This document shows, piece after piece, positions 8,975-15,848 of a stretch of DNA of 36,542 nt. How positions within the stretch are numbered: position 1 is the stretch's first letter; each line of letters begins with the position of its first letter. The position numbers and the translations under genes are program-made. The stretch is from Candidatus Aminicenantota bacterium (GTDB taxonomy: Bacteria > Acidobacteriota > Aminicenantia > JAMOAD01): positions 1 to 36,542 of the forward strand of contig JAMOVU010000016.1 of NCBI GenBank assembly GCA_027067555.1, written 5' to 3'. The notes beneath the pieces are model-generated. The model saw nothing but the letters and a program-made list of their open reading frames with translations, was not told where the DNA came from and did not search any database.

Positions 8975-9523
8975 TTATCGCTCTTTGCTAAAGAGCTCTT
9001 CTATATCAAGATCAGGATGAATAAATGATCCCGGAAAAAAGTATTTTATGAGTTTTTCTTCAGGTAAATTTTCTCTGTTTTTGAGCTCTTCATACTGCTT
9101 TTCCATATATCCTCTGATTATGAAGAATATTCCTCTGTCAAAAAATGAGTGAAAGGTTGTTTGAAGTTCAAGGGCCGTTTGAAGAGCTATAGTACTATCA
9201 AATATGTTTTTTTCCAGAATTGTTTTCCAGAGAATTCTTTTTAAAAGGTAAACAGCGTATTGAACTTCACAGAGAGGAAATTTCTCTTTGTATCTTTCTC
9301 TTCCTACTCCAGCAAAATACTTTCCTATTTTATTTTTTGAAATATCCTCTTTCAGGAATATTATAAGGTTTTCGATAAGTTTTTTACTCCTTTTTTCAAG
9401 TTCTCCGTCTGTCAGTTTCTGGTATGTTCTCATATATTTTGATGCTCTTGTTTCATTAACCCACATTTTGGCAATTAAATCCTTTTTTTCTTCAATAAAA
9501 CTTACAAGACGGCGGTAAACCAT
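8975..9523 (-). CDS. RsbRD_N-like all-helical sensor-domain protein
   Basis: LVSFIEEKKDLIAKMWVNETRASKYMRTYQKLTDGELEKRSKKLIENLIIFLKED resembles RsbT co-antagonist RsbRD N-terminal domain; SD GGAGGT. Confidence 0.55.
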   Translation of the reverse strand: MVYRRLVSFIEEKKDLIAKMWVNETRASKYMRTYQKLTDGELEKRSKKLIENLIIFLKEDISKNKIGKYFAGVGRERYKEKFPLCEVQYAVYLLKRILWKTILEKNIFDSTIALQTALELQTTFHSFFDRGIFFIIRGYMEKQYEELKNRENLPEEKLIKYFFPGSFIHPDLDIEELFSKER

Positions 9524-9651: not shown

Positions 9652-9680
9652 TTGACATGTTAAAATTTTTTTCATATATT
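9652..9680 (+). promoter_or_regulatory. Promoter of sulfur operon: TTGACA-17-TATATT
   Basis: TTGACA 9652-9657, 17-nt spacer, TATATT 9675-9680; ATG at 9689. Confidence 0.65.
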
Positions 9681-9688
9681 AAGATATT

Positions 9689-10042
9689 ATGGCTGGTAAT
9701 GACTCTTTTTATGAGTATTATTCTTTGATTTGTAGGACCATTACAACTCCATCAAGGCTTAAGATATTGGAAGCAATAGGTTTGAAAAAGATGAATGTCT
9801 CCGAAATATATGAAGCTACCGGACTTTCGAGGAGTAATCTTTCAAATCATTTGGGAGCTCTTTATAAAATAGGGATATTAGGTAGAGAGAAAGTTGGCAA
9901 CTATATTTACTATTACCTTGCCCAGCCTGAAATTTTAAAGGTAATGGAAATGATGATGGACATAGTGCGAAAAATTTCAAAGGAAAGACATAGCTTTGTA
10001 AATAATGGTGAAAATTGTGAGAGTGTAAATGGAAAAGATTAA
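9689..10042 (+). CDS. ArsR-family winged-helix regulator
   Basis: TTPSRLKILEAIGLKKMNVSEIYEATGLSRSNLSNHLGALYKIGILGREKVGNYIYYYL; Cys at 15 and 110. Confidence 0.88.
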   Translation: MAGNDSFYEYYSLICRTITTPSRLKILEAIGLKKMNVSEIYEATGLSRSNLSNHLGALYKIGILGREKVGNYIYYYLAQPEILKVMEMMMDIVRKISKERHSFVNNGENCESVNGKD

Positions 10043-10565
10043 TTTTTACCTGATTTTTGCGAATCTTTTAGATTATCCTGATGAGAAAAAATTATCTCTC
10101 TTTGAAAGATTCGAAAACATTGTTGGTCTACACTATACTGGTGAAATCCCTCCTTTGGAGAATTTAGAAATAGAATATACAAAGCTTTTTGTTAATGCTC
10201 ATCCGTATCTTCCTGCTCCTCCCTTTGCCTCAGTTTATTTAAATTCTGAAAACCTTTATGATGAAATTGAATCATTTTACCAGAGTGTCGGATATGGAAT
10301 CGAAACAAGGGAATTTCCTCCAGATTATCTGATTTATGAGTTAGTGTTTCTTTCAAATTTATTTAATGATGAAAATTACAAAGCTGAAAGAAAATTTTTG
10401 ATATCACATTTTTTACCATGGTTTGAAAAATTTGTTAAAAAAGTTAAGGAAAATGATGAGACCGGATTTTACTCTTTTATTTGCGAAAAAATTAATATCT
10501 TTTTAAATAATAGATTAAAGGAGTTAAAAGATGGGGAAACCAATCTCCAGAAGAGAGTTTTTTAA
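10029..10565 (+). CDS. TorD/DmsD-like molybdoenzyme chaperone
   Basis: IEYTKLFVNAHPYLPAPPFASVYLNSENLYDE.., adjacent to and overlapping molybdoenzyme gene. Confidence 0.8.
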   Translation: MEKINFYLIFANLLDYPDEKKLSLFERFENIVGLHYTGEIPPLENLEIEYTKLFVNAHPYLPAPPFASVYLNSENLYDEIESFYQSVGYGIETREFPPDYLIYELVFLSNLFNDENYKAERKFLISHFLPWFEKFVKKVKENDETGFYSFICEKINIFLNNRLKELKDGETNLQKRVF

Positions 10566-12846
10566 AAGATCGCTCCTCGGTGCAGGAGCAATAGGTGTTA
10601 CGGATTACTCTTATGTGTTCAAAAAGTTTCCTCCGGGAAAGGCAGGCAGGGAAGATGTTGAGCTGATTCCTTCTATTTGTGAAATGTGCTTCTGGAAGTG
10701 TGGGATTATTGGGAAGGTTAAAAATGGAAGGCTTTTAAAGATTGAAGGAAATCCCAGGAACCCTCACAATGGTGAAAAGATTTGTGCAAGAGGGAACTCT
10801 GGTATAATGCAGCTTTATGATCCTGACAGACTTAAGTATCCATTGTTAAATGTTGGGAAGAGAGGGGAGCCCAAGTGGAAAAGGATTTCATGGAAAGAGG
10901 CTCTTAATAGAATTGCTGAAAGGATGCTTGAGTATAAAAAAAAGTATGGGGCAAGAAGTATAGCCAACTTGTCTCACGGCTCATCCTCTATTCCGATGAG
11001 AAAACTTTTGAAAAATTTTGGTACTGACAGAATAGCTCATGCCTCTTTTGATCAGTGTAGAGGAAACAGAGATGTTGCTTTTGAGCTTACCTTTGGTATG
11101 GGAGCTGGTTCTCCCGAAAGAGTGGATTTGATAAATGCAAAAGCCATTCTCTTAATAGGCTCTCACATAGGAGAAAATGTTCATACTTCCCTGGTAAAAG
11201 AGTTTATAGAGGCAGTTGAAGGAAGAAAGGCGAAGCTCGTTACGGTTGATCCGAGATTTTCGATGATTGCAGGTAAATCGGATTACTGGCTTCCTATCAA
11301 ACCGGGAACTGATACAGCTTTGATTTTGACTCTTATAAATTATATTATTCAGCACAATCTTTATGATAGGGAGTTTGTTAATAACTATACTTATGGTTTT
11401 GATAAATTAAAGGAAGAGGTGAAAAACTATACTCCTGAATGGGCTGAAAAGATTACAGAGATAAAGAAAGAAATAATTATTGAAATAGCGGAACTTTTTG
11501 GAAGGAGTAAACCTGCTGTTACAATATTCCCTGGAAGACAATCAACATGGTATGGAAATGATACTCAAAGAGTAAGAGCTCTTGCAATTCTTGCCTCTAT
11601 TTTAGGGGCAGTAGGTAGAAGGGGAGGTTACTTTTTCCCGACTAAGATTAAGTTGAAAGGATGTCCATGTCCCAATAAAATTGAAGGGGAAGATTTTCTT
11701 TGTGATACAAGTGAATATCCTTTTATGGAGACTACTACCGAATGCATTAGAGAAGCTACTTTGAATGATGAAGTTAAGATGTGGATTGTCTATGGTTCCA
11801 ATATAATACACAATACACCGAATCCACAGAAAACAATAAAAGCCATTAATAAACTCGATTTTATGGTTGTTGTTGATATTAAACCAACAGAACCATCTCT
11901 TTATGCTGATATTGTTCTTCCGGAAGCCACTTATCTTGAAAGATATGATATTCCCTTTATGGTTGCTGATTCAAGGACTCCATTTATTCAGATAAGAAGA
12001 CCTGTGGTTCAACCACTTTACGAATCAAAAGATCCATTTTATATAGTAAGTGAACTTTCAAAGAGGCTTGGGCTTAAAGATTGTTTCCCATGTGAAACCA
12101 TGGAGGATTATCTTAATCTTGCTCTTTCTTCAATAGGGACAAACTTGAGAAAATTAGAGAAGGAAGGAGGGGTTTACAGGTATGAAGGAAAACCTTTTCT
12201 TGATGATTTTGGAGGAAATTACAGATTTCCCACACCAACAGGGAAGATTGAGCTTTATTCAACTAAGTTAAGCTTGAATGATAAAGACCCGATTCCCAAA
12301 TACGAACCTGTGGAAGATCCTCCGAAAGGATGGGCAAGGTTGAGTTACGGAAGATCGCCTGTTCATACTTTTTCAAGAACTGAAAATAACAAATGGCTTC
12401 ATGCTCTCAATCCTGAGAATGACCTCTGGATTAATGAAGAAGCTGCAAAAAGTATGGGATTAAAAGATGGAGAGTATGTAAGATTAAAAAATCAGGATGG
12501 AGTTGTTTCTGATCCTGTTAAACTTAAAGTTACTCCGGGGATAAGACCTGATATGGTTCATACATATCATGGTTTTGGTTCTCAATCCCCATTCTTAAGG
12601 TTGGCATATAAAAAGGGAATGTTTGAAAATGCTCTTATCACAAAAATTGTTCTTGATCCGATAATGGGAGGAATGGCAAAAAGAATCAATTTTGTGAAAA
12701 TAATCAAAGATGGGAAAGAGATTGATTTCCCTGTAATAAAACAAAAACCTTCCGGGTTTAAGAAAAAACCGGAAAAGGAGATAAAGATTAAATTAACCGC
12801 TCCTCTGCCCGTAGGCGGGCATGAAGAGGAAGAAGGAGGTTGCTAA
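10531..12846 (+). CDS. Tat-exported molybdopterin oxidoreductase, polysulfide/thiosulfate reductase chain A-like
   Basis: SRREFFKRSLLGAGAIG Tat motif; CEMCFWKCGI..EKICARG 4Fe-4S motif; ASFDQCRGNRD putative Cys Mo ligand; molydopterin dinucleotide-binding C-terminus GRSPVHTFSRTENNKWLHALNPENDLWINEEAAKSMGLKDGEYVRL. Confidence 0.85.
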   Translation: MGKPISRREFFKRSLLGAGAIGVTDYSYVFKKFPPGKAGREDVELIPSICEMCFWKCGIIGKVKNGRLLKIEGNPRNPHNGEKICARGNSGIMQLYDPDRLKYPLLNVGKRGEPKWKRISWKEALNRIAERMLEYKKKYGARSIANLSHGSSSIPMRKLLKNFGTDRIAHASFDQCRGNRDVAFELTFGMGAGSPERVDLINAKAILLIGSHIGENVHTSLVKEFIEAVEGRKAKLVTVDPRFSMIAGKSDYWLPIKPGTDTALILTLINYIIQHNLYDREFVNNYTYGFDKLKEEVKNYTPEWAEKITEIKKEIIIEIAELFGRSKPAVTIFPGRQSTWYGNDTQRVRALAILASILGAVGRRGGYFFPTKIKLKGCPCPNKIEGEDFLCDTSEYPFMETTTECIREATLNDEVKMWIVYGSNIIHNTPNPQKTIKAINKLDFMVVVDIKPTEPSLYADIVLPEATYLERYDIPFMVADSRTPFIQIRRPVVQPLYESKDPFYIVSELSKRLGLKDCFPCETMEDYLNLALSSIGTNLRKLEKEGGVYRYEGKPFLDDFGGNYRFPTPTGKIELYSTKLSLNDKDPIPKYEPVEDPPKGWARLSYGRSPVHTFSRTENNKWLHALNPENDLWINEEAAKSMGLKDGEYVRLKNQDGVVSDPVKLKVTPGIRPDMVHTYHGFGSQSPFLRLAYKKGMFENALITKIVLDPIMGGMAKRINFVKIIKDGKEIDFPVIKQKPSGFKKKPEKEIKIKLTAPLPVGGHEEEEGGC
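12801..12830 (+). repeat. GC-rich hairpin at 3' end of molybdoenzyme gene, just upstream of next SD
   Basis: TCCTC-TGCCCG-TAGG-CGGGCA-tgaa-GAGGA: 11 bp with a 4-nt bulge. Confidence 0.55.
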
Positions 12847-13580
12847 TGGCTAAGTATGGAATGGTCATTGACCTTGATCGCTGTGTTGGTTGTCAGGCTT
12901 GTATGGTTGCCTGTAAAGCTCAGTGGCAAACTCCTGAAGACTATTTCAGAACATGGGTTAAACATATAGGTCCTGTTCAAATTAAAGATGAGATGGTATT
13001 TACCTCTTATGTCGGTCAGTGTAATCATTGTGATAACCCCCCGTGTGTTCCTGCTTGCCCAACTCAAGCAACTTTTAAAGATACTGAAACCGGAATTGTT
13101 CTTGTGGATTATGATCTTTGTATCGGGTGCGGATATTGTGTCGAAGCATGTCCATATGGGGCAAGATTTATAAATCCTGTTACTAAGAAAGTTGAAAAGT
13201 GTGATTTTTGTTATCCGAGATTGGGAGAAGAGGATCCTGCTTGTGTAAAAACATGTATTGTTTCTGCGAAAGTTTTTGGGGATCTTGAAAACAAAGACTC
13301 TTATATCTCCAAGAAAATAAGTGAAGGTAATACTTATATAATTGCCACTAAAGAGGTTAATCCTGGTCCTAATGTTTATTATAAAGGTAGAAGAAGCAAA
13401 ATTGAGGCTATTATAAAGAATTATCCACCTGAGAAAAAGGATACACTTCCTGCTAAAATCTGGTCAAATGTTTTAAGACCTTTTGTAATTTTAGGCGCAG
13501 GAGCAACCTTTATCGGTAGTCTTGTTGCCTTTCTGTTTCAAATAAATCAAGGAGAAAAGGAGGGTGAAGATGAGGAATGA
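12846..13580 (+). CDS. 4Fe-4S ferredoxin-type electron-transfer subunit with C-terminal TM helix (PsrB/FdnH-like)
   Basis: CVGCQACMVAC, CNHCDNPPCVPAC, CIGCGYCVEAC, CDFCYPRLGEEDPACVKTC; C-terminal FVILGAGATFIGSLVAFLF TM; start refined to ATG after GGAGG. Confidence 0.92.
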   Translation: MAKYGMVIDLDRCVGCQACMVACKAQWQTPEDYFRTWVKHIGPVQIKDEMVFTSYVGQCNHCDNPPCVPACPTQATFKDTETGIVLVDYDLCIGCGYCVEACPYGARFINPVTKKVEKCDFCYPRLGEEDPACVKTCIVSAKVFGDLENKDSYISKKISEGNTYIIATKEVNPGPNVYYKGRRSKIEAIIKNYPPEKKDTLPAKIWSNVLRPFVILGAGATFIGSLVAFLFQINQGEKEGEDEE

Positions 13581-14826
13581 GATTTTAGAGAAATACCTCC
13601 CTTTGACACCTGAAGAGAAGGAAGAGTTAAAGAAAAAAAGGATAAAAAAGCATCATGTTGCCACAATTTTTCTTCACTGGTTTAATATGTTGGTATGGCT
13701 TACAGAGCTTATTACAGGTGCTGCTTTAATAATTTCATCCAACTATATTTTTGTACCGAGGTTTTTTACCAAACTTGTAAGTGATATTTACGGAACGAGG
13801 GGTAATATAATAAGAACACATATTTTTGTAGGTGTCGTTTGGGCCATCGTTTTGATTTTGTATGCTCTTTTCGGATGGAGAAGATATTTAAAACCAACTT
13901 TAAAGGAGATTTTTGGGATAACCAAAGATGACATAGGATGGTTAGTATCAAAATTTGAAGAGGTCGCCCTTGGTAAAAAAGTACATTATCCTCCTCAGGA
14001 TTCTTATAATGGAGGACAAAAACTTTTTGCCATAGTTGTAGCTCTTATGGTGCCAGTGATAATCATTACTGGTTTTATAATGGCATTTCACCTTTTAACT
14101 CCTGCTTTAATCAGATGGGCAATAATTATTCATTTTATAGCAGTTGGACTTGTTGTAATGGGATTATCTGTTCATATATATATGGCACTTCTCTATCCTC
14201 CTGAGCAAGAAGGTCTTTTTGGTATGATTCATGGCTATATTTCCGAATATTTTGCTTACCATCACCATTATAAATTTTGGCGTAAAAAGAAAAAGGGGCT
14301 TGATAAACCTGCAGAACTTCCACCAAAAAAAGATCTTTCTCCCATAAAAGCAGGTATCTTTTTGGGTGTTGTACTTTTCTTCTCCTTTTATTTAACCGGT
14401 TTTGGGCTTGGCTCTTCCGGTTTTGTGCAGAGAACACTTGTGGCTATCTTTGGTGCATTTGCTCCGGAGAGTGTAAAAAATCACCCCTATATGGGGCATT
14501 ATTGGGGTGTTTATCCTCTGTGGAATTTCTTAGTGTTTATGGGGTTTGGAGTTATTATTGGAACTCTTTTTGCAATGTTTTTGTCAAATCATAAATTTAG
14601 ATTCAGAATTGAAAAGGGAGATAAAATATCAGATATTCAAAGACTTATTTATGCTGTAATTGGGGGAATTATCGTGGGATTTGCCACAAGAATTGCCGGA
14701 GGATGTACTTCCTCTATGGCTCTTTCAGGTGGCTCTGTATTTTCTCCCGGAGGGTGGCTTTTTATGATTTTCCTCTTTGTTGGAGGATACCTGGGAGCTT
14801 TCTTTTTTAGGAGGTTATGGAAATGA
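13564..14826 (+). CDS. Fusion: cytochrome b (FdnI/Ni-hydrogenase type) + YeeE/YedE (PmpA/TsuA-like) half-transporter
   Basis: N-terminal KHHVATIFLHWFNMLVWLTELITG..RTHIFVGVVW..IHFIAVGLVVMGLSVHIYMALL; C-terminal GGIIVGFATRIAGGCTSSMALSGGSVFSPGGWLFMIFLFVGGYLGAF. Confidence 0.82.
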   Translation: MKMRNEILEKYLPLTPEEKEELKKKRIKKHHVATIFLHWFNMLVWLTELITGAALIISSNYIFVPRFFTKLVSDIYGTRGNIIRTHIFVGVVWAIVLILYALFGWRRYLKPTLKEIFGITKDDIGWLVSKFEEVALGKKVHYPPQDSYNGGQKLFAIVVALMVPVIIITGFIMAFHLLTPALIRWAIIIHFIAVGLVVMGLSVHIYMALLYPPEQEGLFGMIHGYISEYFAYHHHYKFWRKKKKGLDKPAELPPKKDLSPIKAGIFLGVVLFFSFYLTGFGLGSSGFVQRTLVAIFGAFAPESVKNHPYMGHYWGVYPLWNFLVFMGFGVIIGTLFAMFLSNHKFRFRIEKGDKISDIQRLIYAVIGGIIVGFATRIAGGCTSSMALSGGSVFSPGGWLFMIFLFVGGYLGAFFFRRLWK

Positions 14827-15407
14827 TAGGTCCTCTTTATAAAGTTTTAGGTTGGAGTCATGGAACTTTGCTTGTACTTGCTCTTATTGTTGGGTTTTTC
14901 TTTGGTTACGCTCTTTATAGATCAGGTTTTTACAGTGCAAAAAAGTTAGCAGGTGTTTTTTATCTTTATGATTTTGCTGTATACAAGGTTATATTTGTTG
15001 GAATCATTGCTGCAGCCCTGCTTTTGTGGCTTTTTTCAGGGATAGGGTTATTGAAATTTGAGCTTTTAAGCTTTCATCCATCATACCTTATTTCGGCAGC
15101 AATAGGAGGTTTTATTTTTGGTATAGGATTTTCAATAGGTGGATTTTGCCCCGGAACTTCTCTTGTAAGTGCTGTTACCGGAAGTTTTGATGCAATGGCT
15201 TTTTTTGTGGGGGTTTATCTCGGAATTGCAATATGGGATTTGGGTTATCCTTTTTTATTTAAAGGTTTAAATCATATTGGAAAGATAGATGCCAAAACAT
15301 TGATGGAGGCCTGGGGGGTACCTTATATTGTTCTGATTATAGTTGCTTTGATTATTGCTGTTGTAACATTCCCTGTTGTAAGTAAAATTGAAGATAAAAA
15401 CAAATAA
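14817..15407 (+). CDS. YeeE/YedE family (PmpB-like) sulfur-compound transporter half
   Basis: SAAIGGFIFGIGFSIGGFCPGTSLVSAVTGSFDAMAFFVGVYLGIAIWD. Confidence 0.85.
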   Translation: MEMIGPLYKVLGWSHGTLLVLALIVGFFFGYALYRSGFYSAKKLAGVFYLYDFAVYKVIFVGIIAAALLLWLFSGIGLLKFELLSFHPSYLISAAIGGFIFGIGFSIGGFCPGTSLVSAVTGSFDAMAFFVGVYLGIAIWDLGYPFLFKGLNHIGKIDAKTLMEAWGVPYIVLIIVALIIAVVTFPVVSKIEDKNK

Positions 15408-15422
15408 TAAAGGAGGGATAAA

Positions 15423-15848
15423 ATGAAAAAGAGACTTATTATTTTTTCAATTGTAATTTTGATGGTTTTTTCTGTATATGCGCAGATTAAACCAGCGAGG
15501 TATTTTGTTGAAAGAGCTATTGCAAAAATTAATATGATAACTCCTCAGGAAGCAAAAGCCATGATGGACAAAGGGGGAGTTATTGTAATTGATGTTAGAA
15601 CAGAGAAAGAGTATAAGAGAGGAACAATACCTGGAGCTATGCACATTCCGCGAGGATTACTTGAATTTAAGGTGTATAAGGTTATTACTGATCCTAATCA
15701 AAAAATCATAATCTTTTGCAAATCAGGGGGAAGAGGAGCCCTTGCTACTTTAAGATTAAAAGAAATGGGGTACAAAAATGTATATAATATAAAAGGAGGT
15801 TTTAAAGGCTGGAAGAAAGCAGGTTTACCTGTTGGAAGAGGGAAATAA
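15423..15848 (+). CDS. Periplasmic single-domain rhodanese
   Basis: Signal peptide; MITPQEAKAMMDKGGVIVIDVRTEKEYKRGTIPGAMHIPRG..KIIIFCKSGGRGALATLRLKEMGYKNVYNIKGGFKGWKKAGLP; active-site CKSGGR. Confidence 0.92.
   Translation: MKKRLIIFSIVILMVFSVYAQIKPARYFVERAIAKINMITPQEAKAMMDKGGVIVIDVRTEKEYKRGTIPGAMHIPRGLLEFKVYKVITDPNQKIIIFCKSGGRGALATLRLKEMGYKNVYNIKGGFKGWKKAGLPVGRGK

Follow-up and report, generated by a model that had tools for sequence, protein, structure and literature searches.

A molybdoenzyme operon with a cytochrome b fused to half of a putative sulfur channel

YeeE and PmpAB proteins are sulfur importers, and Psr/Phs enzymes are periplasmic sulfur reductases. What would an enzyme of the latter kind do with half of a YeeE channel fused to its membrane anchor? 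The question is raised by an operon in a 36,542-nt stretch of DNA from a Candidatus Aminicenantota bacterium (assembly GCA_027067555.1, contig JAMOVU010000016.1, positions 1 to 36,542; hereafter the window), in which a cytochrome b and the C-terminal half of a YeeE/YedE protein share a single open reading frame (ORF). Seven + strand ORFs, mostly overlapping or separated by short gaps, occupy 9689–15848 exactly where the original prediction had placed them, and a Pfam search backs every part that it had named: an ArsR-family regulator, a TorD-type chaperone, a catalytic molybdenum (Mo) subunit, an iron-sulfur (FeS) subunit, the cytochrome b::YeeE fusion (its YeeE part is called YeeE-A here), a second YeeE half (YeeE-B), and a rhodanese (Table 1). 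We give a probability of roughly 0.55 to the reading that this operon encodes a Psr/Phs-type sulfur oxidoreductase, bound to the membrane and linked to quinone, that brings its own conduit for sulfane sulfur; we infer its reductive direction, substrate, and physical coupling.

The cytochrome b::YeeE fusion recurs in at least 16 genomes

A profile search of the 420-aa fusion product placed PF01292 at residues 30–224 (1.7e-20) and PF04143 at residues 250–409 (4.8e-17), in agreement with the predicted domain composition. The fusion is intact in three independent relatives, all Candidatus Aminicenantes, with 83–91% identity and the same operon. Scanning GTDB species genomes with two DNA patterns, both drawn from within the cytochrome b part, and considering the best 80 of 129 matches, we found 12 further Acidobacteria, more distant (40–45% identity), that carry the fusion as a single ORF and belong to Bryobacterales/Solibacteraceae where named. 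The minimum count is thus 16 genomes, 4 of Aminicenantes and 12 of Bryobacterales-type Acidobacteria, and both PF01292 and PF04143 are found in 16/16 proteins. We therefore reject an assembly frameshift as the source of the fusion. Full-text searches of open-access papers turned up no account of the fusion or of the gene set; subscription journals lie mostly outside that coverage.

The catalytic subunit resembles PsrA/PhsA and the cytochrome b anchor FdnI

The Mo subunit matches Molybdop_Fe4S4, Molybdopterin, and Molydop_binding in Pfam and aligns over its full length with PsrA of Thermus thermophilus (2vpw; residues 6–727, 619 bits), compared with 202 bits for acetylene hydratase and at most 190 bits for formate dehydrogenases. 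These scores bear out the proposed Psr/Phs-type identity and led us to reject formate dehydrogenase, PsrA being far closer; arsenate and tetrathionate reductases were rejected on their lower scores. By alignment, the Mo-ligand Cys173 of PsrA corresponds to Cys176 here and the active-site Arg332 to Arg336; among 74 homologues, 73 keep the Cys and 58 the Arg. Together, alignment and tree support grouping of the Mo subunit with PsrA/PhsA/SrrA. At the Arg332 position, Trp replaces Arg in 14 Chloroflexi Mo subunits (L093–L115), which may have a different substrate. The Chloroflexi clade also comprises 14 rows, mostly with YeeE upstream of Mo, and the two sets may coincide.

A Tat (twin-arginine translocation) signal, a four-cluster FeS partner, and a membrane anchor are all present in ABC order. 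Cys counting and hydropathy show that the 16 Cys of the FeS subunit fall into four groups and that the protein ends in an FdnH-like hydrophobic helix (residues 215–233). The assignment of the anchor as a diheme cytochrome b also held: it matches FdnI (1kqf_C) in sequence and in its four-helix fold (E 2e-6; TM-score 0.79, normalized by target length), and the aligned heme ligands His38, His86, His190, and His204 are invariant in 16/16 fused proteins. Judged from the sequence, basic residues at each end of the cytochrome b domain suggest that its two termini, along with the linker to YeeE-A, face the cytoplasm. Taken together, the Tat-exported molybdenum-bis(pyranopterin guanine dinucleotide) (Mo-bisPGD) subunit, the FeS subunit with its membrane helix, and the FdnI-type cytochrome b support a predicted route for electrons between quinone and a sulfur substrate in the periplasm.

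The two YeeE halves carry conserved cysteines

PmpB aligns with the N-terminal half of YeeE and has the equivalent of Cys91, and PmpA aligns with the C-terminal half and has the equivalent of Cys293 (PMC11582611). Because the fused part matches PF04143 profile positions 169–309 (the C-terminal half) and the separate gene positions 1–147 (the N-terminal half), the operon has the PmpA/PmpB arrangement. Both halves score above the PF04143 cut-off. Cys381, the sole Cys of the fusion protein, lies at the TsuA Cys293 position and is invariant in 16/16 fused homologues; Cys111, the sole Cys of YeeE-B, aligns with TsuA Cys91 (6leo) and is invariant in 27 homologues. In TsuA, both of these cysteines are essential. 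Downstream, the gene predicted to encode a periplasmic rhodanese does combine a PF00581 match with a Sec-type (general secretory) signal peptide, the latter judged by eye.

Related clusters and further fusions in several phyla

Gene order, on which the proposed coupling depended, is conserved, with the same operon in close relatives and related clusters in several phyla. YeeE-A is present in 25 of 36 full-flank cytochrome b loci: fused in 9, adjacent downstream in 4 (L088 placed there by hand), and upstream in 12. Unfused cytochrome b/YeeE/Mo clusters occur in WOR-3, Chloroflexi, Myxococcota, Deltaproteobacteria, and one Bacteroidetes metagenome-assembled genome. In the WOR-3 locus L073 the order is ArsR-Mo-FeS-cytb-rhodanese-rhodanese-YeeE-A-YeeE-B, and in Chloroflexi YeeE-A-YeeE-B lies upstream of Mo-FeS-cytb. 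Among Acidobacteriota, other Aminicenantia included, there is a version with NrfD (by PF03916), Mo-FeS-NrfD-YeeE-A-YeeE-B, often with a rhodanese. In the cultured Anaeromyxobacter oryzae (L119, 4868–17006), the cytochrome b version of the Mo/YeeE cluster adjoins the NrfD version.

Other neighbors are fused elsewhere. FeS::cytb fusions were confirmed in L100, L111, and L114, and YeeE-B::rhodanese fusions are found in L139, L142, L145, and L156, of which only L139 adjoins a Mo operon. That neighboring parts are fused in different organisms argues for a joint function. In L142 (5608–10253), YeeE-A stands beside a YeeE-B fused to multiple rhodanese domains and a second multi-rhodanese gene; this stretch has no Mo enzyme, so YeeE/rhodanese pairs also exist alone.

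Trees of Mo, cytochrome b, and YeeE-A each place Aminicenantes next to WOR-3. In the cytochrome b tree, Aminicenantes group with unfused WOR-3 (support 97/97), and the Bryobacterales fusion lies in another clade. For cytochrome b, the approximately unbiased (AU) test rejects a single clade of all fused rows (p 0.0006); it does not reject a grouping of Aminicenantes with the Bryobacterales/Terriglobia clade in its entirety (p 0.15), nor, for YeeE-A, a single clade of all fused domains (p 0.39). These results suggest, rather than establish, two origins of the fusion; one origin followed by later splitting would also be compatible with the AU tests.

Regulator, chaperone, and upstream region

The promoter-like site ends 8 nt upstream of the ArsR start codon, and relatives have a similar TTGACA stretch upstream of arsR. 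Cys15 of ArsR is invariant in 13 operon-linked ArsR proteins from several phyla. A paired Cys sensor was rejected, as conservation beyond Aminicenantes is limited to Cys15; LC-[KR] near the Cys15 helix may be common among ArsR proteins, so we give the conservation of Cys15 little weight. ArsR and TorD form one fused gene in L060, one of the three close relatives. Divergent from the operon, an RsbRD_N/HisK_N-domain protein is encoded on the - strand (window 8975–9523); the gene was not seen beside the operon in relatives having upstream sequence.

Table 1. Features of the operon in the window
Feature	Position	Strand	Evidence
Promoter-like site, TTGACA-17-TATATT	9652..9680	+	11/12 consensus matches; consensus only
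ArsR-family regulator, Cys15 and Cys110	9689..10042	+	HTH_5, PF01022 1.4e-10
TorD/DmsD-type Mo-enzyme chaperone	10029..10565	+	Nitrate_red_del, PF02613 1.7e-16
Catalytic Mo-bisPGD subunit, PsrA/PhsA/SrrA family, Tat motif SRREFFK	10531..12846	+	Pfam, alignment, tree
Four-cluster [4Fe-4S] subunit, 16 Cys	12840..13580	+	Fer4_11, PF13247 1.5e-23; 2vpw_B 148 bits
Cytochrome b::YeeE-A fusion, 420 aa	13564..14826	+	PF01292 and PF04143 in one ORF
Diheme cytochrome b domain of the fusion	13651..14235	+	FdnI (1kqf_C) match by sequence and fold
PmpA-like C-terminal YeeE half, GGCTSS motif	14311..14790	+	PF04143; Cys381 codon 14704-14706
PmpB-like N-terminal YeeE half, 196 aa, CPGTS motif	14817..15407	+	PF04143 1.5e-13; Cys111 codon 15147-15149
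Single-domain rhodanese, Sec-type signal peptide, loop CKSGGR (Cys99)	15423..15848	+	PF00581 4.8e-26

Host genome context and a model for the operon

The host genome is 97.7% complete. Its other PF00384 matches are NuoG and one protein of the same enzyme class, whose gene is incomplete and lies on a short contig, and neither dsrA nor a PF00115 heme-copper oxidase was found in it. On another contig (C65; L161, 2907–8667, - strand), it encodes a DsrE2-like protein, TusA, FlpD/MvhD, two Hdr/Qmo-like flavin adenine dinucleotide (FAD)/FeS proteins, and a QmoC-like membrane FeS protein. Together they form a cytoplasmic sulfur-carrier/Hdr cluster in this genome that lacks dsrA. A further contig (C173; L173, 78–3444) has a heme o synthase gene, despite the absence of a detected PF00115 oxidase, after an FGE-sulfatase-type gene and a gene for a 511-aa membrane protein without a family match.

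In the model that we favor, the PmpA-like and PmpB-like halves would pair beside the cytochrome b, and electrons from menaquinol would reduce polysulfide or thiosulfate in the periplasm. Sulfane sulfur left unreduced at the Mo site would pass to the periplasmic rhodanese and on through the pore, by way of Cys381 and Cys111, into the cytoplasm, where the TusA/DsrE/Hdr-type proteins of the genome could receive it. Control of the operon probably lies with ArsR, which would respond to reactive sulfur, and TorD is probably the chaperone of the Mo subunit. A more ambitious proposal, which we consider less likely than not, is that all parts form a single complex, a quinone-linked Mo enzyme joined through cytochrome b to a Cys-lined channel, with translocation of sulfane sulfur coupled to electron flow; such a redox-driven sulfur-group translocator would then exist in several phyla, in one version with cytochrome b and another with NrfD.

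Weighing the model against its alternatives

Several observations weigh against the model of a sulfur-reducing enzyme with its own conduit. The substrate cannot be read from a sequence of the PsrA/PhsA/SrrA type. The best NCBIfam model of the Mo subunit, PhsA (NF012032), scores 483 bits, below its equivalog cut-off of 694, and the cytochrome b scores 77.2 bits against the formate dehydrogenase gamma equivalog TIGR01583, below 115.85. In TsuA, the path is lined by Cys293, Cys91, and Cys22, in that order, and Cys22 contacts the cytoplasmic partner YeeD (PMC11073785); the 6leo alignment and the Cys count show that both halves lack an equivalent of Cys22, so passage into the cytoplasm may differ from that in TsuA. 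AlphaFold models built on shallow alignments and of medium confidence in the YeeE halves (mean pLDDT, the predicted local distance difference test, 83.6 for the fusion, lower in its YeeE part, and 77.2 for YeeE-B) gave no match to TsuA (6leo), and the YeeE/TsuA link thus rests on sequence profiles and Cys motifs. MenA is above cut-off in the host genome, in which menB and MqnA were not found (MqnA was also not found in six relatives); the quinone is therefore uncertain, and the upstream menaquinone steps may be unusual. Finally, YeeE is absent nearby in 11 of the 36 full-flank cytochrome b/Mo loci, which indicates that the channel is not essential to this type of enzyme. The same 11 loci favor a looser linkage, in which an ordinary Phs-type thiosulfate reductase is accompanied by a sulfur importer and a detoxifying rhodanese and the fusion sets only stoichiometry or co-localization, as does the position of the Chloroflexi YeeE genes, upstream of Mo and apart from cytochrome b. 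We nevertheless consider such an arrangement unlikely, since several distinct gene fusions tie FeS, cytochrome b, YeeE, and rhodanese together, and fused cytochrome b and YeeE occur in two separate clades.

Two other explanations keep the parts together and change the chemistry. In formate dehydrogenase-N, the FdnI-type cytochrome b carries electrons inward and is electrogenic, and the enzyme here could possibly run in reverse of the proposed direction. Periplasmic sulfide or polysulfide would then be oxidized, electrons would pass through cytochrome b to quinone and generate a proton-motive force, and the YeeE pair would import the resulting sulfane sulfur, which fits the TusA/DsrE/Hdr-type cluster of the genome. 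YeeE/SoxT proteins do import sulfur for oxidation (PMC11582611). We prefer the reductive direction because the PsrA, PhsA, and SrrA enzymes characterized so far act as reductases and the genome yielded no heme-copper oxidase; with dsrA also not found, there is no obvious acceptor for electrons from sulfur oxidation, and we regard oxidation as improbable. We attach similarly little credence to a respiratory selenite reductase resembling SrrABC, in which the rhodanese and the YeeE/YedE pair would handle reduced selenium. SrrA belongs to the PsrA/PhsA/SrrA family and has the same Cys ligand (PMC10100899), the srr operon likewise encodes a rhodanese protein along with a chaperone and an anchor (PMC12481199), and in NCBIfam both YeeE halves hit selenium-type YedE models best, at scores (38.3 and 27.9 bits) that fall far short of the respective cut-offs (350 and 200 bits). 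On the other hand, rhodanese and YeeE/PmpAB are just as much proteins of sulfur metabolism, a TusA/DsrE cluster is retained in the genome, and selenite is rarer than sulfur intermediates; no selD was above cut-off in the host genome, and so nothing points to the use of selenoproteins or selenouridine, although selD is not required for respiring selenite.

Comparison with known systems and significance

The operon resembles PsrABC (Thermus thermophilus 2vpw; Wolinella) in its full-length Mo subunit with the Cys ligand and Arg, its four-cluster FeS subunit, ABC order, and Tat signal. It differs in having a diheme cytochrome b anchor in place of NrfD/PsrC, an FeS subunit with its own C-terminal membrane helix, and the added YeeE halves and rhodanese. 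FdnGHI shares the cytochrome b fold and heme ligands and an FeS subunit with a membrane helix, whereas the Mo subunit here is Psr/Phs-like. PhsC is a cytochrome b, and the Salmonella protein is not known to be fused to YeeE. The likeness to Salmonella PhsABC lies in PhsA being the best NCBIfam model of the Mo subunit, yet below cut-off, and PhsC is a five-helix anchor (PMC2500031).

With TsuA/YeeE and PmpA/PmpB the operon shares PF04143 and one conserved Cys per half, at TsuA Cys293 and Cys91 (PMC11582611). TsuA is a single chain with three conserved Cys; here the protein is split over two genes with 2/3 of these Cys present, the PmpA half is fused to cytochrome b, and the operon has no TusA-like partner gene, as distinct from TsuA/PmpAB. 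SrrABC has a Mo subunit of the same family, an FeS subunit, a chaperone, and a rhodanese gene beside the Mo operon, but the srr operon as listed (PMC12481199) has no YeeE genes and a separate anchor, SrrC. The MOLY cluster of sulfur disproportionators (MolyABC, of the OG1 clade; PMC12998232) shares Mo A/B subunits and a TorD-type chaperone and lacks a membrane anchor, which is a cytochrome b here; the YTD cluster (PMC12998232) similarly pairs YedE with sulfur carrier proteins, but has no Mo enzyme and contains TusA/DsrE, which in this genome (TusA and DsrE2) lie on another contig.

A recurrent gene set with direct fusions between its parts suggests, in a form open to testing, how respiration of sulfur in the periplasm connects to the entry of sulfur into the cell. 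If the model is correct, a defined role in sulfur (or selenium) redox chemistry would fall to the uncultured Aminicenantes and to several Acidobacteria of soil and subsurface, a role that annotation as formate dehydrogenase gamma or as a sulfur transporter would overlook. In these bacteria, a single machine may handle both the flow of electrons and the movement of sulfur.

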